Positions 3,227 to 64,000 of a DNA stretch of 64,000 nucleotides are shown here, one piece after another. The translations under genes and the position numbers were made by a program. The stretch lies in assembly GCF_006538165.1 (NCBI RefSeq), contig NZ_BDLU01000032.1:62001-126000 (forward strand), in the 5' to 3' direction. Each line of letters starts with the position of its first letter. Positions within the stretch are counted from its first letter, which is position 1. The stretch is from Komagataeibacter diospyri (GTDB lineage: Bacteria > Pseudomonadota > Alphaproteobacteria > Acetobacterales > Acetobacteraceae). The notes under the pieces were generated by a model. It worked only from the letters and a program-made list of their open reading frames with translations, was not told the DNA's origin and searched no databases.

Positions 3227-3649
3227 GGTCCCTACCTCCTGCAATATCTGAAAACGGGGCACATCGTACACCAGACATTGCCCCGCACAACCGACCCGGA
3301 GGCCGTGATGGGACATGAACGGACCGGCAGCGCATCCCGCACCGCCAGCTGGCGTCCCGTATTGTTCAAACCCGCGTGATGATGACGCAGGCATCATATC
3401 CGTCACACTGCTTTTCCTCCTTGGCCATGCCCGGAAACCACGCAGTGAGTGTGCCCCTGCCCTGTTCCCGGCACGCATTGACAATATACCAATGGATATA
3501 GTCACGATGGGGAGAGCGTTCCCGCGACGGGTCGCGCCAGCCGGGATCATCCCATAGCCTAGCAACCCGTTTGTGCGTTCAGACAACGCAAACCTTCGTC
3601 CGTTATGGAAAACATGACCCACGAAGCAGCCACAAAGGACACTGACGAC
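3227..3649. other. Divergent intergenic region between SDR and dehydrogenase genes
   Basis: About 420 bases separate two divergent starts. The dehydrogenase frame could begin at 3605 or 3614, which would shorten this region. No intact gene, repeat or clear operator was seen; both promoters must lie here. Confidence 0.5.
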
Positions 3650-53266: not shown

Positions 53267-54061
53267 TTATTCTGGGTTCGCAGGGGCCAGCAGCACTTCC
53301 CCCGTCACCACGCGCCGCACCCCTTCGGACGTGCGCAGCAACAGGATACCGTCATCCCCCAACCCTGCAAACGTGCCGGTAAACTGCTGGTTTCCTGCCG
53401 TAACCCGTATGGGTGTGCCGATCGCGTGCCCGCGTTCCAGCCACGCCGCACGGATGGCGCCAAATCCATGGGCCCGGTAACGCGACAGCCACAGGTCCAG
53501 ATGGTGCAGAAGCCTGTACGCCACGTCGGGTGCCGCCGGCACATCGGCCTGGCAGTCCGCCAGGCAGGACAGCGTGCGGCCTGCGATATCGGGTCTGGCG
53601 CGCAGGTTGGCCCCAATGCCGATCACCTGCCACGACCCCCCTGCCCCGATCCCGGTTTCGATCAGGATACCGGCCATCTTGCCCCCATCCAGCAGCAGGT
53701 CATTGGGCCATTTCAGTTCCAGCGTATGACCGGCGGGCACGTAACCTGTAATGGCGTCATACAGTGCAAGTCCCGCAATGAAGGGCCATAGCCCCACCGG
53801 CACGTCCGCCCCCTGCCCCACCAGCATGACCGACAGGGCCAGATTGCCACCGGGATCGTTCCATTCGCGCCCCCGGCTGCCACGTCCCGCCGTCTGTTCC
53901 AGCGCGAGTATGGCAACACCATCCTCCCTTTCGCCCGCCTCAAGCCGGGCCTTGCACAGGTCGGATGTTGATCCCAGCCTGTCATGCACCTCCATCCGCC
54001 ATGCGGCCCCGCCGCCACGGGGGATCGGGACAATGGACGGACGGCGGGCGGGCTGGGTCAT
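53267..54061 (-). CDS. birA: Biotin-[acetyl-CoA carboxylase] ligase
   Basis: The 264-residue ligase attaches biotin to carboxylase carrier protein. Seen: GSTSDLCKARL, ALEQTAGRGSRGREW (biotinyl-AMP site), GNLALSVML, LKWPNDLLLDGGKMAGILIE and the C-terminal SH3-like GTPIRVTAGNQQFTGTFAGL. There is no N-terminal helix-turn-helix, so this is the class I enzyme without repressor function. It lies three bases from nuoN in the conserved nuoN-birA-rnj order; a 283-base gap to rnj holds no supported gene. Confidence 0.92.
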   Translation of the reverse strand: MTQPARRPSIVPIPRGGGAAWRMEVHDRLGSTSDLCKARLEAGEREDGVAILALEQTAGRGSRGREWNDPGGNLALSVMLVGQGADVPVGLWPFIAGLALYDAITGYVPAGHTLELKWPNDLLLDGGKMAGILIETGIGAGGSWQVIGIGANLRARPDIAGRTLSCLADCQADVPAAPDVAYRLLHHLDLWLSRYRAHGFGAIRAAWLERGHAIGTPIRVTAGNQQFTGTFAGLGDDGILLLRTSEGVRRVVTGEVLLAPANPE

Positions 54062-54064
54062 GCG

Positions 54065-55489
54065 TTACCTGAACAATGCGCTCGCCGCCGCCTGTGCCGC
54101 TGTTGCGACAGGACCAAGCCCCACCACGAAGAATGTGGTCACCAGCCCCATCCCCACCGATACGAACGACACGGAAACAGGCGAGCGGTCCAGCGCCGGG
54201 GCGGCGGCATCGAAAAACATGATCTTGACGATCCGGATATAGTAATACGCCCCGATCACGCTGCTGATGATACCGATTGCCGCAAGCCCGTAAAGATGCG
54301 CGTTGATCGCGGCATAGAATACCATAAGCTTGCCAAAGAACCCGGCCAGCGGCGGCGCGCCCGCCATGGAGAACATGAACACCGCCATGGCCAGTGCCAT
54401 GCCCGGATCCGTGCGGCCCAGACCGGACAGGTCGCTGATCCGGCTGACCGCATGCCCCTTGCGGCGCATGGCGACAATGCCCGCGAACGCACCGACATTC
54501 ATGAACAGATAGGTCACCAGATAGACCAGCGTACCGCGCGTGCCCTCTGCCGTGCCGGCCGCCATGCCGATCATGGCGTAACCCATGTGCCCGATGGAGG
54601 AATACGCCATGAGCCGCTTGATATTGCCCTGCGGAATGGCCGCAAGCGACCCGAACACCATGGACGCGGCGGAAACGATTTCAATCAGCAACTGCCACTG
54701 CGGCGTCATGCTGCCAAAGGGACCGGCCATGACGCGCAGCAGCACCGCGAATGCCGCGATCTTGGGCGCACCGGCCATATAGGCGGTGACCGACGTGGGC
54801 GCACCCTGGTACACATCGGGCGTCCACATATGGAACGGCACCATGGACAGCTTGAAGCACAGTCCCACCAGCACGAACACAATGCCTACCATAAGCCCCG
54901 CGGGCAGCACCGCACTACCGCGCACGGCCTGCTGCAGGCCGGCATATTCCATCGTTCCGGCAAAACCGTATGCCAGCGAGATGCCATACAGCAGCAGCCC
55001 CGACGCCAGCGATCCCAGCACGAAATACTTCAGCCCCGCTTCCGCCGCCGTTACCCGGTCACGGGCAAAGGCGCACAGGATGTAGATAGACAGCGAAGAC
55101 AGTTCCAGCCCGACAAACAGCGTCATGAGATTTCCCGATGACGCCATGATCATCGTGCCCAGCGTGGAAAACGCGATCAGGACAGGGAATTCGAACTTGT
55201 CGATTTCCATTTCCCGCGCGTACCCTACGCTCAGCACGACTGAAAGGGCGGCCCCTGTCAAACTCAGCACCTTCATGAAACGGGCGAAGCCGTCATTGAT
55301 GAAGATGTGGTTGTACCCGGTGCCATCGGGCGAAAACACGACAAGGATGCCCGTGACCACCAGAGCCAGCAGCGTCATCATCGCACAGGAAAAGAAGGCC
55401 TGCCCGCGCCGTTGCATCACCCCGGCAAGCAGGATGACCAGCCCCGACAGGGCCAGCACGATTTCGGGCAGCGCAAGTGTCCAGTTCAT
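54065..55489 (-). CDS. nuoN: NADH-quinone oxidoreductase subunit N
   Basis: About 474 residues with 14 membrane helices. LTLFVGLELSSLSIYILCAF-type helix (GLELSSLSIYILCA) carries the conserved glutamate, KYFVLGSLASGLLLYGISL and LCFKLSMVPFHMWTPDVYQG the conserved lysines, and HTGYAM-type GHMGYAMIGM and AGAPPLAGFFGKLMVF follow. These mark NuoN and not NuoM. I place the start at 55489 (MNWTLALPEI, AGGG upstream); an ATG at 55507 is in frame. The preceding gene is nuoL, with nuoM missing. Confidence 0.93.
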   Translation of the reverse strand: MNWTLALPEIVLALSGLVILLAGVMQRRGQAFFSCAMMTLLALVVTGILVVFSPDGTGYNHIFINDGFARFMKVLSLTGAALSVVLSVGYAREMEIDKFEFPVLIAFSTLGTMIMASSGNLMTLFVGLELSSLSIYILCAFARDRVTAAEAGLKYFVLGSLASGLLLYGISLAYGFAGTMEYAGLQQAVRGSAVLPAGLMVGIVFVLVGLCFKLSMVPFHMWTPDVYQGAPTSVTAYMAGAPKIAAFAVLLRVMAGPFGSMTPQWQLLIEIVSAASMVFGSLAAIPQGNIKRLMAYSSIGHMGYAMIGMAAGTAEGTRGTLVYLVTYLFMNVGAFAGIVAMRRKGHAVSRISDLSGLGRTDPGMALAMAVFMFSMAGAPPLAGFFGKLMVFYAAINAHLYGLAAIGIISSVIGAYYYIRIVKIMFFDAAAPALDRSPVSVSFVSVGMGLVTTFFVVGLGPVATAAQAAASALFR

Positions 55490-55515
55490 TGGTATTGGCC
55501 CTGACATGCCTGGGG

Positions 55516-57453
55516 TTAGCGGAAGAACAGCATGGTGGTCAGCAGCACCACCAGCCCGATCAGCATGGAAAAGGCATAGACCGCCATCGACCCGGTCTGG
55601 ATGCGCACGGCCTGCCCCGCACTGCCTGCGGTCAGGCGGGCCAGCCCTTCGGGTATGCCTTCGACCACATCTTCATCCACGCCCTTCCACAACAGACGCG
55701 CAACCGCGCGATAGGGGCGGATGATGGCCACGTCATACAGTTCATCGAAATACCATTTGTTCAGCAGGAACAGGTAAAGCGGACGCAGGCTGCGCGCGAG
55801 TGCGGCCGGAATGCCGGGGCTTGCGACATAGCAGACATAGGCCACGACGATGCCGAATACGGCGGCGAATGTCGGCACCAGTGCTATGAAGCCGGGCGTC
55901 TGTTCAAGACGTTCAATCACGTCATGACCGGGAATTGCGGCAATCGCCCCGTTCCAGAACGCTGCCTGGTGGCTGCCGATATAGAACGGTTCCAGCACGA
56001 TACCCGCAATCACCGCACCCACGGACAGCAGCCCCACCGGCAGCAGCATGGACGCCGGGCTTTCATGCGCGCCGTCATGCAGGTGCGCCTCCCGCGGCTT
56101 GCCATGGAACACAAGGAAGATCAGGCGCCAGCTGTACAGCGCAGTCAGGAATGCGGTGATGCACCCCATGACCCAGCCATAATGGCCCATGGTGCTGTCC
56201 GACATCCATGCGGCCTCCAGGATCGCATCCTTTGACCAGTAACCGGCAAAGGGAAAGATACCGGCCAGTGCAAGGCTGCCGATCCACATGGCGGCATAGG
56301 TGAAAGGGATTTTCCGCCACAGCCCGCCCATGCGGAACATGTCCTGTTCATCATGTACGGCATGGATCACGCAGCCCGCGCCAAGGAACAGCAGCGCCTT
56401 GAAAAATGCATGCGTGGTCAGGTGAAACATGGACGCCTGATAGGCCCCGACACCAACGGCCACGAACATGTAGCCCAGCTGCGAACAGGTGGAATAGGCA
56501 ATGGTGCGCTTGATGTCGGGCTGCACCAGCCCCACGGTCGCGGCAAAGAAGCTGGTGGTGCCCCCAACCAGCACGATCAGGTCGCGCGTTACCGGGGCCA
56601 GTTCCACCAGCGGCGACATACGCACCATAAGAAAGATGCCCGCCGTGACCATGGTTGCCGCATGGATCAGGGCGGAAACCGGGGTTGGCCCCTCCATCGC
56701 ATCAGGCAGCCATGTGTGCAGGAACAGCTGCGCCGACTTGCCCATGGCCCCGATGAACAGCAGCGTGGCAATGACTTCATACAGCGGATGCGTGCCGAAC
56801 AGCACGAACGTGTCATTCACATGGTAGGGAATGGCGGCAAAGATTTCCTCATACGACACGCTGCCCAGCCGGATGAAGATCAGCGAAATTCCGACAAGGA
56901 AAAACAGGTCCGCCACACGGTTGACCACAAACGCCTTGATGGCGGCGGCACAGGCGGATGGCCGGTCGTACCAGTAGCCAATCAGCAGGTAACTGGCCAG
57001 ACCCACCCCTTCCCAGCCAAAGAACAGCTGCAGCAGGTTGTCCGACGTCACCAGCATGAGCATGGCGAACGTGAACAGCGACAGGTAGGAGAAGAAGCGG
57101 TACACCGGCCGCGCTTCATGAGCCATGTAGCCCACGCTGTACACATGCACCAGCAGGGAAACAACGGTAACCATGGCCACCACGCTGACCGAAAGCATGT
57201 CCATGCGCAGCTGCCAGTCGGCACGGAAACCCGCGGCATGGACCCAGTCGGCCACCGGCACGACAAACGTGCCCACATCGCCCATCTCGAACCCCAGCAC
57301 GCCAATGGCCGCCAGCGCCGAACAGGTCATGAGGCCGATCGTGGTCAGCCGCGCCGCCCCGTCACCCATCAGGTGACCGAAACAGCCCGCCACCAGAAAG
57401 CCGATAAGGGGCGCGAACACCGCTACTTCAAAAAGGAAGGATGCCGTCTGCAT
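55516..57453 (-). CDS. nuoL: NADH-quinone oxidoreductase subunit L
   Basis: The 645-residue antiporter-like subunit has FAPLIGFLVAGCFGHLMG at the start, LQLFFGWEGVGLASYLLIGY (key glutamate), FLHTWLPDAMEGPTPVSALI, HAATMVTAGIFLMVR, KRTIAYSTCSQLGYMFVAVG and FKALLFLGAG. The long C-terminal lateral helix region is present and it ends with a last membrane helix (MLIGLVVLLTTMLFF). Length and both ends look normal, so the missing neighbour nuoM was not lost by fusion with this gene. Confidence 0.95.
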   Translation of the reverse strand: MQTASFLFEVAVFAPLIGFLVAGCFGHLMGDGAARLTTIGLMTCSALAAIGVLGFEMGDVGTFVVPVADWVHAAGFRADWQLRMDMLSVSVVAMVTVVSLLVHVYSVGYMAHEARPVYRFFSYLSLFTFAMLMLVTSDNLLQLFFGWEGVGLASYLLIGYWYDRPSACAAAIKAFVVNRVADLFFLVGISLIFIRLGSVSYEEIFAAIPYHVNDTFVLFGTHPLYEVIATLLFIGAMGKSAQLFLHTWLPDAMEGPTPVSALIHAATMVTAGIFLMVRMSPLVELAPVTRDLIVLVGGTTSFFAATVGLVQPDIKRTIAYSTCSQLGYMFVAVGVGAYQASMFHLTTHAFFKALLFLGAGCVIHAVHDEQDMFRMGGLWRKIPFTYAAMWIGSLALAGIFPFAGYWSKDAILEAAWMSDSTMGHYGWVMGCITAFLTALYSWRLIFLVFHGKPREAHLHDGAHESPASMLLPVGLLSVGAVIAGIVLEPFYIGSHQAAFWNGAIAAIPGHDVIERLEQTPGFIALVPTFAAVFGIVVAYVCYVASPGIPAALARSLRPLYLFLLNKWYFDELYDVAIIRPYRAVARLLWKGVDEDVVEGIPEGLARLTAGSAGQAVRIQTGSMAVYAFSMLIGLVVLLTTMLFFR

Positions 57454-57458
57454 TTCCC

Positions 57459-57782
57459 TTACCCCTTCATCATCGTGATATCATCGACTTCGATCGAGCC
57501 GCGATTACGGAAATAGACCGTGACAATGGCCAGCCCGATGGCGGATTCCGCCGCCGCGATGGTCAGCACGAACAGGGTCATCACCTGCCCCGACAGGTCG
57601 CCGGTAGCAGCCGAAAACGCCACGAAATTGATATTGGCCGAAAGCAGGATCAGTTCGATCGACATCAGAATGATGATGACGTTCTTGCGGTTCACGAAAA
57701 TGCCGAACACGCCCAGAACCAGCAGGATTGCGCCAATGCTCAGGTATGGCCCAAGACCAATCCCCTCAATCGCGCTATGCAT
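57459..57782 (-). CDS. nuoK: NADH-quinone oxidoreductase subunit K
   Basis: The 107-residue protein has three membrane helices; [38 protein letters not shown] (conserved glutamates in IELILL) and [20 protein letters not shown] are typical of NuoK. The ATG at 57782 lies inside the end of nuoJ (eight-base overlap). The longer open frame upstream is antisense to nothing real but overlaps nuoJ and is not used. Confidence 0.95.
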
Positions 57783-58548
57783 TGTCCTGTCCTTTCGTGC
57801 CTGCCGCAGGGGTAATGACCACCAGCGCGGTTTGTGTTTCTTCTTCCATTTCCTGTTCACGCCACGCCTGCGTGCCATAGCTGCCGGGGACGGACGCCAC
57901 GTCGTATGACGTATGCGGACGCAGGAAGCCGCCCTGTGCCGCAACACCCACGCCCAGCGGAACCTGCAGCATTTCCAGGCTGTCGGCGGGCGTGCGGTCA
58001 TGCTGGCGGTCGATGTTCTGGCGACGTCCGGTCGGCCGGTCACGCAGCGTCAGTACGATTGCGCCGATCATGGCCACCAGCAGCACCAGTGCGCAGGACT
58101 GGAACAGAAAGATGTAGTGGGTATAAAGCACGTCCCCCAGCGCCGCCGTATTGGTACGCGTGGGCGACGACGGAACAATGTGCCCGACCTGATCAATATT
58201 GGACGCCACGCGCCAGCGGGTGAACGCCATGATCAGTTCAACCAGCAGCACGCCGCCAACCACGCCACCAATGGGCGCGTAGCGCTGTACGCCTTCACGC
58301 ATCCGCGCGAAATTGACATCCAGCATCATGACTACGAACAGGAACAGGACCGCGACCGCGCCGACATAGACAATCACCAGCGTCATCGCGAGGAATTCGG
58401 CCCCCGCAATCAGGAACAGCCCCGCCGCATTGAAGAATGCAAGGATGAGGAACAGTACCGAATGCACGGGGTTGCGCGCGCACACCACCATGGTGGCGGA
58501 CAGGACCAGAACCGCCGCAAAAACGTAAAAGACAATCTGGGTCATCAT
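57775..58548 (-). CDS. nuoJ: NADH-quinone oxidoreductase subunit J
   Basis: The 257-residue protein has five membrane helices with [40 protein letters not shown] and [20 protein letters not shown], the NuoJ signatures. A hydrophilic C-terminal extension of about 75 residues follows the last helix ([16 protein letters not shown]...), longer than in E. coli. AGGAAG seven bases before the first of two adjacent ATGs sets the start. Confidence 0.93.
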
Positions 58549-58626
58549 GGGTGAGCTTCCTGCAGCATGGATGTTTCCTCCTGCTGGCATGACGGGGCTG
58601 GCCGGTGCTGCGCCCGCCGTGCGATG

Positions 58627-59115
58627 TCAGCGGTACGGGGCATCAAGTTCGAGCCTGCGGGCAAGGACGCTTTCCCAGCGGTCGCCATTGGCCAGCAGCT
58701 TGTCCTTGTCGTACATAAGTTCTTCGCGGGTTTCGGTCGCGAACTCATAATTCGGGCCTTCGACAATCGCATCGACCGGACATGCTTCCTCGCACAGGCC
58801 GCAATAAATGCACTTGGTCATGTCAATGTCGTAGCGTGTGGTCCGGCGGGAACCGTCATCACGCGGTTCGGCCTCGATGGTGATGGCTTCCGCCGGACAC
58901 GTCGCCTCGCACAGCTTGCACGCAATGCAGCGTTCTTCCCCGTTGGGGTAACGACGCAGCGCGTGTTCGCCACGAAAGCGCGGTGACAGCACGCCCTTTT
59001 CATAAGGGTAGTTGATCGTGGCCTTTGGTTTGAAAAACGCCTTCAGTGTCACGCTCATGCCCGTCACCAGTTCGGACAGAAGCATGGACCGGGCGGCTTT
59101 GCTTAAGGTACCCAT
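58627..59115 (-). CDS. nuoI: NADH-quinone oxidoreductase subunit I
   Basis: The 162-residue ferredoxin-like subunit carries two 4Fe-4S motifs, [16 protein letters not shown] and [16 protein letters not shown], binding clusters N6a and N6b of the peripheral arm. It also has the [17 protein letters not shown] segment. The start at 59115 shares a base with the nuoH stop (TGATG). A 78-base gap separates it from nuoJ. Confidence 0.95.
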
Positions 59116-60137
59116 CAGCCTGCTCCTCCGGGCAGAAGGCCCGTTACCATCAGGAATCCCGCGCTCAGCACCATCCACGCCAGCGAGAAGGGCAGGAACA
59201 CTTTCCAGCCCAGCCGCATGAGCTGGTCATAGCGATAGCGGGGGAATGTCGCGCGCACCCAGATGAAGACAAACAGGCAGAACAGGATCTTCGCGATCAG
59301 CCACAGCGGCCCCGGTATCCATGTAAAGGGCGCGATCCCCAGCGGCGGCAGCCATCCACCCAGGAACAGGATGCTGACCATGCCAGACATGAGGAACATG
59401 TTCGCGTATTCACCAAGAAAGAACAGACCGAAGGCGAGCGCGGAATATTCGACGAAGAAGCCCGCCACCAGTTCGCTCTCGCCTTCCGGCAGATCGAATG
59501 GCGCGCGGTTGGTCTCGGCCAGTGCCGAGATGAAAAACACGATGAACATCGGGAACATGGGCAGGCAGAACCATACGTTGCGCTGCGCCAGCACGATGTC
59601 ATTCAGGTTGAGGCTGCCCACCGCCAGCAGGACCGACACGATCACCAGCCCGATGGACACTTCGTAGGACACCATCTGTGCGGCCGACCGCAGGCCACCA
59701 AGAAAGGCATATTTGGAATTGGACGCCCACCCCGCGATCAGGATGCCGTAAACACCCAGCGATGAAATCGCCAGCAGGTACAGCACGCCCACATTGATGT
59801 TGGCGATGGCCAGCCCGTTGCCCGTAGGGATCACCGCCCATGCCACCATCGCCAGCGAAAATGTCAGGAACGGCGCGAACAGGAACAGCATCCGGTTCGC
59901 ACCCGACGGGATCACCGTCTCCTTCGTGAGCATCTTGATCGCGTCGGCAAAGGCCTGCAGCACGCCAAACGGGCCGTTCACGTTCGGCCCCTTGCGCAAT
60001 TGCATGGCGGCCATCACCTTACGTTCGGCCAGCGTCAGGTATGCAACCCCAAGCAGCAGCGGCACCAGTACCGCCAGCGTTTCCAGCACGATCAGCAGAA
60101 GCTGGCCCAGCGTGGTGTGAAAGAAGAAATCTGCCAT
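59115..60137 (-). CDS. nuoH: NADH-quinone oxidoreductase subunit H
   Basis: The 340-residue membrane subunit forms much of the quinone site. [68 protein letters not shown] and [20 protein letters not shown] are all conserved NuoH segments. It starts [12 protein letters not shown] at 60137, five bases past the nuoG stop. Confidence 0.95.
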
Positions 60138-60142
60138 CTTGC

Positions 60143-62203
60143 CTACTCCGCCGCGATTGCGGGACGCACGTAAATCCCAGAACAGGTTTCCATGGTGGGA
60201 CTGGCGCGGCACATGGCATGGGTCAGGTAATAATCAGCAATGACCGGATGGAACGGATCACTGGACATGATGACCGTTCCTGCCTGCGGCGGCGTCATGT
60301 CTGATGTGCCGTGGCGGGCCCACGCAACCCCGAATGCCGGGTTGGCCCGCACCATGCGTGCGCGCAGGGCCTCGATCGTGTCGTAGGGCAGCTTGCGCCC
60401 CACAACTTCGGAAAAGGCGCGTAATATGCGCCAGTCCTCGCGCGCATCACCGGGCGGCATGATGGCGCGGAACGCTTCCTGCACCCGCCCTTCGGTATTG
60501 GTGTAGGTACCGGGCTTTTCGGCATATAGCGTGCCGGGCAGGATCACGTCCGCCCGCGCGGCCCCCGCGTCGCCATGATGGCCCTGATAGATGACAAAGG
60601 TTTCCGGCCCGATGCGGTCGGTTGCGAATTCATCCGCACCCAGCAGCCACAGCACGTCCACCCCGCCATCCAGCATGCCCGCCACGTCACGGCCTTTTGG
60701 TCCGGGCACAAGGCCAAGGTCCAACCCGGCAACGCGGCTGGCGGCCGTGTGCAGCACGTTGAATCCATGCCAGTCAGGCGTAATGGCCCCGACCTGCACC
60801 GCCAGATCCCAGCATGCCTTTGCAATTGCCTGTCCGTCGGGCCGCGTCAGTGCGCCATGACCGAGAATGACCATGGGCTTTTCCGCGTTTTTCAGCACAT
60901 CGGCAAACGCCAGCTTCCCGTCTGCCAGTTCAGCCAGCGTATCCGGCCCAGCACCCAGTACCTCGGCCGTGTAGGTCGGGTCGGCATTGGGCGCGCCAAT
61001 CATGCCGATGGGAAAACCACCCCGCCCGGCCGCAAGGAAACGCTTGCGGATACGCGCATTCAGCACGGGCGCTTCCTGCCGGGGAATGGAGCCTACGATC
61101 AGCAGCGCGTCCGCATCCTCGATACCGGCAATGCCACTGTTGAAGGTATAGAAATCACGGCGCGACATATCGTATTTCGCCCCGTCCTGCCGGCAGTCGA
61201 TATTGCTGGACCCCAGTGTTCCCATAAGGTCCTTCAGCGCCATCATGCTTTCAGCATCGCACATGTCGCCCGCAATCGCGCCGATGCGCTCACCCGGCAC
61301 GCTTTTCAGCCGTGTCGCGATGGTGGCAAAGGCATCCTGCCAGCCTGCGGGCTGCAATCTGCCATCCACCCGCACCCATGGCCGGTCAAGGCGCCGACGG
61401 CGGAAACCATCGACCACGAACCGTCCCTTGTCCGACAGCCATTCCTCGTTCACCTCGTCATTGATGCGCGGCACGATGCGCAGTACTGCCGCCCCGCGTG
61501 CATGCATGACGATATTGGTCCCCACCGCGTCACATACGTCGATGGAATCCGTGCGCCTGAGTTCCCATGACCGGGCGGTAAACGCGTACGGCTGCGATGT
61601 CAGCGCGCCCACGGGACAGATGTCGATCAGGTTTCCCGACAGTTCGGATGTCAGGGCCTTTTCAACATAATTGGTGATTTCAAGGTTTTCACCGCGTGAA
61701 ATCCCGCCCAGTTCGGGCACGCCCGCGATTTCGGTCGAAAAGCGGATGCAGCGCGTGCACTGGATGCAGCGCGTCATGACCGTCTTGACCAGTGGGCCAA
61801 GATATTTATCGGTCACCGCGCGCTTGTTTTCGCGATAGCGGGAATGATCCGCGCCATAGCCGAAGGCCTGGTCCTGCAGGTCGCATTCTCCACCCTGATC
61901 ACATATGGGGCAGTCCAGCGGGTGGTTGATAAGCAGGAATTCCATCACCGCACGACGGGCGCGGCGCACGACTTCGGTATCGGTGAATATCTGCATCCCG
62001 TCACCAATCGGGAAACCGCATGAGGCCACCGGCTTGCGCCCGCCCGATACCTCGACCAGGCACATCCGGCAATTGCCCGCGACTGACAGGCGTTCATGAT
62101 AACAGAAACGCGGGATTTCCTTGCCCGCCGCCTCACACGCCTGCAGCGCGGAGGAACCTGCGGGGACTTCAACCGGAATACCGTCAACGGTTACTTTTAC
62201 CAC
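60143..62203 (-). CDS. nuoG: NADH-quinone oxidoreductase subunit G
   Basis: The 686-residue iron-sulfur subunit has a 2Fe-2S ferredoxin domain ([19 protein letters not shown]), [14 protein letters not shown] with the histidine-ligated cluster region, and [18 protein letters not shown] with CPVGAL. The C-terminal two thirds is molybdopterin-oxidoreductase-like, as in other NuoG proteins, without a cofactor role. The start is GTG at 62203, five bases after the nuoF stop. Confidence 0.95.
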
Positions 62204-62208
62204 TGTTC

Positions 62209-63534
62209 CTACTCCGCAGCTTCAACCAGGCCCGCAGGCACCTGCACGGACCGCGTGCCGCCATGGGCTGCCTTGTAGGCATGAATGCGTTCTTCCATGA
62301 CGGGCCGGAACCGGCGGATCAGCCCCTGTATCGGCCATGCCGCCGCATCGCCCAGCGCGCAGATGGTGTGCCCTTCCACCTGCCGGGTGACCTGTTCCAG
62401 CATGTCGATTTCCTCGATTTCGGCGCGGCCTTCGACCATGCGTTCCATGATGCGCATCATCCATCCCGTGCCCTCGCGGCACGGGGTGCACTGGCCGCAG
62501 CTTTCATGCTTGAAGAATTTCGAGAAGCGGGCGATGGCCGCGATGATGTCGGTGGATTTGTCCATTACGATCATGCAGCCGGTGCCAAGGCCGGAGCCTT
62601 CGGCGCGCAGGCTGTCGTAATCCATCAGCACGGTGTCACACACATCGCGCGGCAGCATGGGCACTGAACAGCCACCGGGAATGACCGCCAGCAGGTTGTC
62701 CCACCCGCCCCGCACGCCACCGCCATGCTTTTCGATCAGGTCCTTCATGGGCACGCCCAGCTCTTCTTCAAACACGCAGGGCGTGTTGACGTGGCCCGAT
62801 ATGGCCATGAGCTTGGTGCCCGCGTTGTTGGGCCGCCCCAACCCGGAGAACCACGCAGCCCCCCGGCGCAGGATGGTGGCGGAAACGGCAATGCTTTCCA
62901 CATTGTTGACCGTGGTGGGGCAGCCATACAGGCCCATGGCCGCCGGGAACGGCGGCTTCATGCGCGGCTGGCCCTTCTTGCCCTCCAGGCTTTCCAGCAG
63001 GGCGGTTTCCTCACCACATATGTACGCACCGGCACCCCGGTGGATGTAGAAATCGAAGTCCCAGCCCGACCCGCAGGCATTCCTGCCGATCAGTCCCGCC
63101 GCATACGCCTCGTCAATGGCGTGCTGCAGGTGCATGGCCTCGTTATGGAACTCGCCACGAATGTAGATATAGGCCGCATGCGCCCCCATGGCGAAGGAGG
63201 CAATCAGCGCGCTTTCCACCAGCTTGTGCGGGTCATGGCGCAGGATCTCGCGGTCCTTGCAGGTTCCGGGTTCTGATTCGTCGCCGTTGATCACCAGGTA
63301 ATGCGGTCGCCCGTCATTCTTCCTGGGCATGAACGACCATTTGACGCCAGTGGGAAAACCCGCGCCACCGCGCCCACGCAGGCCGGACGCCTTCATCTCG
63401 TTAATGATGGCATCGCGCCCGCGCGCCAGTATTTCCGCCGTGCCGTCCCAGTCGCCCCGTGCGCGCGCGCCAGCCAGCGTCCAGTCATTCTGGCCATACA
63501 GGTTGGTGAAGATGCGATCCTTGTCCTGCAGCAT
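62209..63534 (-). CDS. nuoF: NADH-quinone oxidoreductase subunit F
   Basis: The 441-residue subunit binds NADH and FMN. Seen: [19 protein letters not shown] (NADH site), [43 protein letters not shown] (FMN site) and the N3 cluster motif [15 protein letters not shown]. It follows nuoE by five bases. Confidence 0.95.
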
Positions 63535-63539
63535 GTTCC

Positions 63540-64000
63540 TTACCCCTGCCCCTGCGGCTTTTGCGCCGCGTCTTCCACCAGCACCTTGCGCCCACCGGCG
63601 GGGGCGGAGTTCAGGCGGTCTATGGTGGGACCGGGCGTGGGCCGTTCGCCACGCTTCAGCGCCTCGATCAGTTCAATGGTGCGCGGACCGTCCAGATCTT
63701 CGTAGTAATCATCATCGACCTGCAGGATCGGGGCATTGGCGCAGGCACCAAGGCATTCGACCTCCGTCAGGGTGAACAGGCCGTCGCTACTGGTCTCACC
63801 AAACGCCCTGATGCCCGTCGCCGCCTTGCATGCCGCCGTCACGTCATCCGAACCACGCAGCCAGCACGATGTGGTGGTGCACACCTGCAGGTGGTACCGG
63901 CCAATCGGTTTGGTGTTAAACATGAGGTAGAAGGTTGCGACCTCGTAAACCCGGATCGGAGCCATTTCCAGACGTTCGGCCACCACATCCATGGCCACGC
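63540..64000 (-). CDS. nuoE: NADH-quinone oxidoreductase subunit E (partial, runs off window)
   Basis: The last ~152 residues are in the window; the 5' end lies beyond 64000. The 2Fe-2S thioredoxin-like domain is complete: [31 protein letters not shown] and [19 protein letters not shown], with the four cysteines binding cluster N1a. A proline- and alanine-rich tail follows. nuoD, C, B and A would be expected further upstream. Confidence 0.93.

Follow-up and report, generated by a model that had tools for sequence, protein, structure and literature searches.

Among the systems described so far, the nearest counterpart to the locus considered here is the complex I of Acetobacter pasteurianus, the one species for which a nuoM gene split from the nuo operon is already in print. 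In the passages available from the respective papers, the operon of strain SKU1108 spans APT_01737-01725 with nuoM, APT_00690, apart (PMC5158111), the complex of strain 386B is given as 'APA386B_556-567 and APA386B_2247' (PMC3751514), and a proteome of the species numbers nuoM 1610 as against 3342-3354 for the operon (PMC10742644). Excerpts of other work cover the distribution of nuo operons, with a tree built on nuoHIJKLN (PMC4596401), and plasmid-borne Nuo subunits in K. saccharivorans (PMC12361115); PMC12405394, PMC13209655 and PMC9368920 were also consulted. The subject of the present analysis is the nuo operon in a stretch of 64,000 nucleotides of Komagataeibacter diospyri, called the window in what follows (contig NZ_BDLU01000032.1, positions 62,001 to 126,000), where nuoL and nuoN abut without nuoM. 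With a probability of about 0.95, this operon contributes to an ordinary 14-subunit alphaproteobacterial complex I (NADH:quinone oxidoreductase) whose nuoM is located at a distant site. The arrangement is old, the move itself being very probably traceable to an ancestor of the acetous group of acetic acid bacteria, and the relocated gene is very probably functional.

Scoring against NCBIfam models recovers an operon of 13 genes, nuoA to nuoL and nuoN, in order and without nuoM, with nuoD, nuoC, nuoB and nuoA continuing past the end of the window after nuoE. Nothing is interposed between nuoL and nuoN, where the canonical operon has nuoM, and both genes match their curated models above cut-off over almost their full length. 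The open reading frames agree with these scores, and the original prediction that both genes are full-length with nuoM absent between them thus stands. The gap of 26 bases that it gave holds for an alternative nuoN start, the ATG at 55489, and not for the ATG at 55507, from which the gap is 8 bases. It had also seen no nuoM fragment at the junction, which is borne out by a tblastn search of the window with the strain's own NuoM and five canonical NuoMs as queries: below E 1e-10 only the paralogues nuoN and nuoL were matched, and the next-best match in the window was at E 0.12.

A search of the rest of the genome for homologues of NuoM and MrpD located the gene on another contig, C37, so that the first explanation offered by the original prediction, namely that nuoM lies elsewhere, proved to be the right one. 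Seven proteins match the PF00361 profile, of which six are over the cut-off (the seventh, at C32:233662, has 20.4 bits and falls below it): the NuoL and NuoN of the window, an adjacent L-M-N set on contig C70 and the product of one lone gene matched at C37:31910-33448 (-). This lone protein is an intact NuoM by NF004499 (594.4 bits, cut-off 585, residues 12-497 of 513), also passes TIGR01972 (555 bits, cut-off 264) and is 98% identical to the NuoMs of the named loci discussed below. Its gene sits between a gyrB-type gene and mutL, beyond which follow lspA, ileS and a riboflavin kinase/FAD synthetase gene. A second explanation, replacement of nuoM by an MrpD-like or other NuoM-like protein, was rejected, the genome's six PF00361 proteins over the cut-off being all of the NuoL, NuoM or NuoN type and all accounted for.

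The lone NuoM is found in all 19 genomes of the genus at 92-100% identity. Among named GTDB genomes, counting only matches that span at least half of the query, 28 loci were obtained from Komagataeibacter, Novacetimonas, Gluconacetobacter and one Acetobacter, with MutL upstream of NuoM in 28/28 and gyrB downstream, within the flank fetched, in 20/28. Two Gluconacetobacter loci (L026 and L028) have mutL some 2 kb farther from nuoM than most, as if something had been inserted between them. A family sample of 150 genomes, whose neighbourhoods were read up to about 8 kb per side, includes 18 with the relocated NuoM type, 17 of them with mutL and/or gyrB nearby and one (G134) with neither. In a sample of 397, 63 genomes were taken as the relocated type by score, together with context for the 18 just described, and nuoL was found in every one of them (cut by a contig end in G308). 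Where nuoL and nuoM share a contig (18/63), they are 188 kb to 3.8 Mb apart, measured linearly with circularity ignored; in the other 45 they are on different contigs, which in draft assemblies is no proof of distance.

The junction of nuoL and nuoN was read in 42 of these 63 genomes, and a comparison with relatives, as the original prediction had proposed, reveals a junction without nuoM in all 42, with an offset of -3 to +77 bases between the nuoL stop codon and the beginning of the nuoN match. Misassembly at the junction can therefore be rejected, because the 42 genomes, this one included, agree and because the contig, at 443,702 bases, extends well beyond the position on either side. Nor does the "clean in-operon deletion" that had seemed uncommon belong to this strain alone, as the junction is common to the genus and related genera. 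Elsewhere the canonical order prevails: L-M-N was found at all 28 loci read in other alphaproteobacterial families (45 genomes from such families had a match) and at 11 of the 12 Acetobacteraceae loci L057-L068, the remaining one, L063, being the orphan nuoM of genome G117 that is considered further below.

Phylogenetically, a careful tree of 51 rows unites the relocated NuoMs with the orphan of G117 in one clade (support 100/100), whose stem measures 0.69 changes per column. When 71 rows were used for a quick tree, 28 of them an outgroup from other alphaproteobacteria, the relocated clade fell within Acetobacteraceae (stem 0.73), the distant NuoM thus belonging to the same lineage as the NuoM of canonical operons in its own family. 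In a quick tree of concatenated NuoL and NuoN (44 rows) the relocated genomes are likewise one clade, with a support of 100 in the Shimodaira-Hasegawa-like approximate likelihood ratio test (SH-aLRT), and the canonical genome G024 is next to them (86).

Several lines of evidence suggest that the distant gene has been maintained as a complex I subunit. Its product has Glu151, Lys230, Lys261 and Glu403, kept in 17/17 relocated rows of the alignment, which we take to be the equivalents of Glu144, Lys234, Lys265 and Glu407 of the antiporter-like channel in transmembrane helices (TM) 5, 7, 8 and 12 of E. coli. The best match among solved structures is the Paracoccus-type subunit M of 8QBY, presumably the complex I of Paracoccus denitrificans (E 3.5e-130, residues 12-494). 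In nine comparisons for each gene, the ratio of nonsynonymous to synonymous substitution rates (dN/dS) was 0.05-0.17 for nuoM, next to 0.04-0.26 for nuoL, 0.02-0.19 for nuoN and 0.08-0.17 for mutL; the distant nuoM is under purifying selection. Within the 150-genome sample, 18 genomes combine the relocated NuoM with a matching NuoL and 21 have neither, so that none of these 39 acetous genomes is discordant. This count leaves out G030, G052, G099, G104, G137, G150, G155 and G160, which are 72-88% complete and without a strong NuoM match; G137 and G155 have an alpha-type NuoL with no NuoM match, taken as assembly gaps because their genus-mates G053 and G081 show adjacent L and M. In the 15 genomes lacking both genes whose mutL region was read, ileS-lspA-mutL is present and nuoM was not found at E 1e-4. 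At the protein level, the excerpted proteome of A. pasteurianus records changes of 0.62, 0.33, 2.16 and 1.78 for NuoM (fig_HN.1610) and of 0.93, 0.31, 2.22 and 2.12 for NuoN (fig_HN.3354), and its NuoB-NuoI rows go down, down, up and up, with NuoM moving alike (PMC10742644). From the joint presence and this co-variation we infer that the distant NuoM is physically part of complex I.

The following course of events may be proposed. In an ancestor shared by the acetous acetic acid bacteria, the nuoM gene would have arrived downstream of mutL, within an ileS-lspA-mutL block, and the in-operon copy would have vanished, leaving nuoL and nuoN to abut. Synthesized apart from the other subunits, the distant NuoM would take its place in the membrane arm between NuoL and NuoN, as the middle one of the antiporter-like subunits, with proton pumping presumably normal. 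More tentatively, its gene might be transcribed from a promoter of its own in the mutL-nuoM spacer, which is 133 bases long in this genome. In ten loci from Komagataeibacter and Novacetimonas, the approximately 70 bases before the nuoM start (L008:10849-10917) are conserved and the half towards mutL is variable, which suggests an own promoter or leader; the consensus RNA fold of the spacer is weak.

Several observations weigh against this account. A consensus scan of the spacer returned no sigma-70-like site, and the one conserved spacer 18-mer that was tried had no match within the 20 kb that surround the operon. NuoM has a long stem, with about 0.7 changes per column vs 0.29 for NuoL and NuoN, and 18 sites are fixed differently from canonical NuoM, a fixed site being one with at least 90% in each group; because of this stem and these sites, the relocated NuoM may possess some altered property. 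The joint presence or absence of nuoM and nuoL may reflect as few as one loss: IleS places 18 of the 21 losers either next to the relocated group or inside it, according to how the tree is rooted (losers G050, G135 and G152 and the canonical G020 were omitted from this tree for partial IleS matches), and since the tree allows a single loss, the 21 are not independent cases. Finally, that the distant NuoM becomes part of the complex is itself something that we infer.

Other accounts have been weighed, and each of them fares poorly. NuoM is found between NuoL and NuoN in established complex I structures, and this speaks against a reduced complex in which NuoL and NuoN suffice and the distant NuoM is unrelated, the last explanation in the original prediction. 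Its appeal comes from an operon that itself lacks nuoM; however, a lineage-matched NuoM is present in the genome, evolves under purifying selection, has been retained wherever nuoL has (0/39 discordant) and, according to the passages available, co-varies in amount with the operon subunits in A. pasteurianus (PMC10742644). A reduced complex is hence scarcely credible. The long stem and the 18 clade-fixed substitutions, several of them near channel residues, would instead suit a NuoM recruited outside complex I, for example as a stand-alone cation/proton antiporter. Yet none of the ten open reading frames scanned around the distant nuoM encodes an Mrp-type partner, the genome has no other alpha-type NuoM, and the gene is absent where nuoL is absent, making such a recruitment most improbable.

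There is, moreover, a second nuo cluster of the E. coli type in this genome, with adjacent L, M and N on C70, and its NuoM, present and full-length, might be imagined to serve both complexes. This NuoM fits a different NuoM model best and shares about 40% identity with the lone, lineage-matched NuoM of C37; 7/19 genomes of the genus (G003, G005, G006, G008, G013, G015 and G016) have no second NuoM at E 1e-10, six of them (G015 was unread) showing the L-N junction without M; and the cluster in this genome is itself split inside nuoF. One NuoM shared between two complexes accordingly has very little to recommend it, and an ordinary complex I with a distant nuoM remains the preferred reading.

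The E. coli-type cluster deserves a description of its own. It is divided between L009:6635-18535 (G000:C70) and L332:8430-12182 (G000:C13), the C13 part comprising an N-terminal piece of nuoF with nuoE, nuoCD, nuoB and nuoA, and the C70 part the remaining nuoF with nuoG to nuoN. On C70 the nuoF break is adjoined by a phage integrase gene, and on C13 an antirepressor-type gene is found about 2 kb from it, which gives the impression of a prophage-like element lodged in nuoF. The cluster is probably of the type of Asaia in the excerpted distribution study (PMC4596401).

The route by which nuoM came to be relocated is less certain than the relocation itself. A copy that arose first, followed by loss of the original from the operon, is somewhat short of an even bet when set beside a one-step move or a transfer between lineages. 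Its chief witness is a genus (g100; G117, G247 and G289, at L105:8127-9659, L326 and L327) that has a canonical L-M-N operon together with an orphan NuoM. The three genomes are single contigs of 2.7 Mb, with the orphan at 803-813 kb in each; their NuoL matches all carry a flagged TGA, which in G117 is codon 4 of the match, ahead of a later ATG, and represents no break. The orphan shares the 100/100 clade with all the relocated NuoMs and has 14/18 of their substitutions, and in a quick IleS tree G117 adjoins the point at which canonical and relocated genomes part (the canonical ones standing apart from it at 83). Against this, the orphan falls outside the relocated NuoMs only at 84/78 in the 51-row tree and 86 in the quick 71-row tree, and the NuoL and NuoN of G117 group with canonical genomes (SH-aLRT 92). 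In G117, the genome of the three whose neighborhood was scanned, the orphan is not beside mutL but has glutamate synthase and a Glu/Gln tRNA-synthetase-type gene near it, and the ileS-lspA-mutL block contains no nuoM. The joining of the in-operon NuoM of G117 to the orphan clade was mildly rejected by the approximately unbiased (AU) test (p-AU 0.027). Given the operon grouping, the AU test and the site away from mutL, g100 may have gained one of its copies by transfer. A bolder and rather unlikely proposal is that the relocated NuoM began as a diverging second copy alongside the in-operon one, a state that g100 would still show, and that in the acetous clade it took over from the original and perhaps adapts proton pumping to an acid environment; if this were true, the complex I of g100 could be built with either of two M subunits, as a swappable proton channel.

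Other genomes offer additional NuoM forms. The in-operon NuoM of G085 (L134) is the row nearest to the relocated clade (100/98), on a long branch of 0.76-0.83, and has 9/18 of the clade-marking substitutions; the NuoL and NuoN tree does not put G085 beside that clade, and its placement in the NuoM trees could be either long-branch attraction or real kinship. G156 (L323), of the same genus (g68), was read for gene order only. In G029 (L122:6074-7522) and G119 (L124:6110-7555), two further Acetobacteraceae, a canonical operon is accompanied by a lone extra NuoM on a long branch, with asparagine in place of the channel lysine of TM8 in both; this would be an independent nuoM duplicate, perhaps with altered coupling.

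The coordinates of the genes under discussion are collected in the table. Downstream of nuoN is birA, not a complex I gene, which also adjoins nuoN in many of the relatives read.

Table. Location and identification of the nuo genes of the window, their junction and neighbor, and the distant nuoM
Feature	Position	Strand	Details
nuoM	G000:C37:31907-33448 = L008:9307-10848	-	outside window, other contig; 513 amino acids, intact
nuoL-nuoN junction	55508..55515	-	8 bases, nuoL stop codon to nuoN ATG at 55507; place of nuoM in canonical relatives
nuoN	54065..55507	-	480 amino acids, final operon gene; NCBIfam NF004440 594 bits, cut-off 519
nuoL	55516..57453	-	645 amino acids; TIGR01974 781 bits, cut-off 407.5
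nuoK	57459..57785	-	108 amino acids as taken here; NF004323 153 bits, cut-off 89
nuoJ	57775..58590	-	NF005164 268 bits, cut-off 154
nuoI	58627..59178	-	NF004539 310 bits, cut-off 225
nuoH	59115..60212	-	start unrefined, reading frame overlaps nuoI and nuoG; NF004745 513 bits, cut-off 450
nuoG	60143..62203	-	TIGR01973 715 bits, cut-off 470
nuoF	62209..63534	-	NF010120 823 bits, cut-off 389
nuoE	63540..64000	-	truncated by window end; whole gene = L010:13540-14199
birA (biotin-protein ligase)	53267..54061	-	TIGR00121 129 bits, cut-off 83; downstream of nuoN

In practical terms, a false alarm is removed, as no complex I proton channel is missing, and in acetic acid bacteria a complex I may be called incomplete in error when the call is based on the operon. 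The clade offers a natural case of a membrane-complex subunit encoded at a distant locus, and g100, with its two NuoM forms, a testable system for the replacement of antiporter-like subunits. None of the literature matches listed, in the passages available, describes a clade-wide relocation beside mutL or a genus with two copies; the clade-wide extent, the mutL site and the genus with both in-operon and orphan nuoM are apparently new.

In comparison with the known systems, the complex I of A. pasteurianus (SKU1108, 386B and NBRC 3283) likewise consists of a nuo operon and a separate nuoM locus, for which the available passages of the papers give locus tags only and leave the site, age and extent of the split undiscussed. 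The E. coli-type nuo cluster likewise contains complex I genes, with L, M and N adjacent and a NuoM only about 40% identical. Subunit M of 8QBY is of the same NuoM family, with the four channel residues aligned, and there the structure is solved. The canonical alphaproteobacterial operon, lastly, has the same subunits with L before N, and differs in that nuoM lies between the two there and not here.

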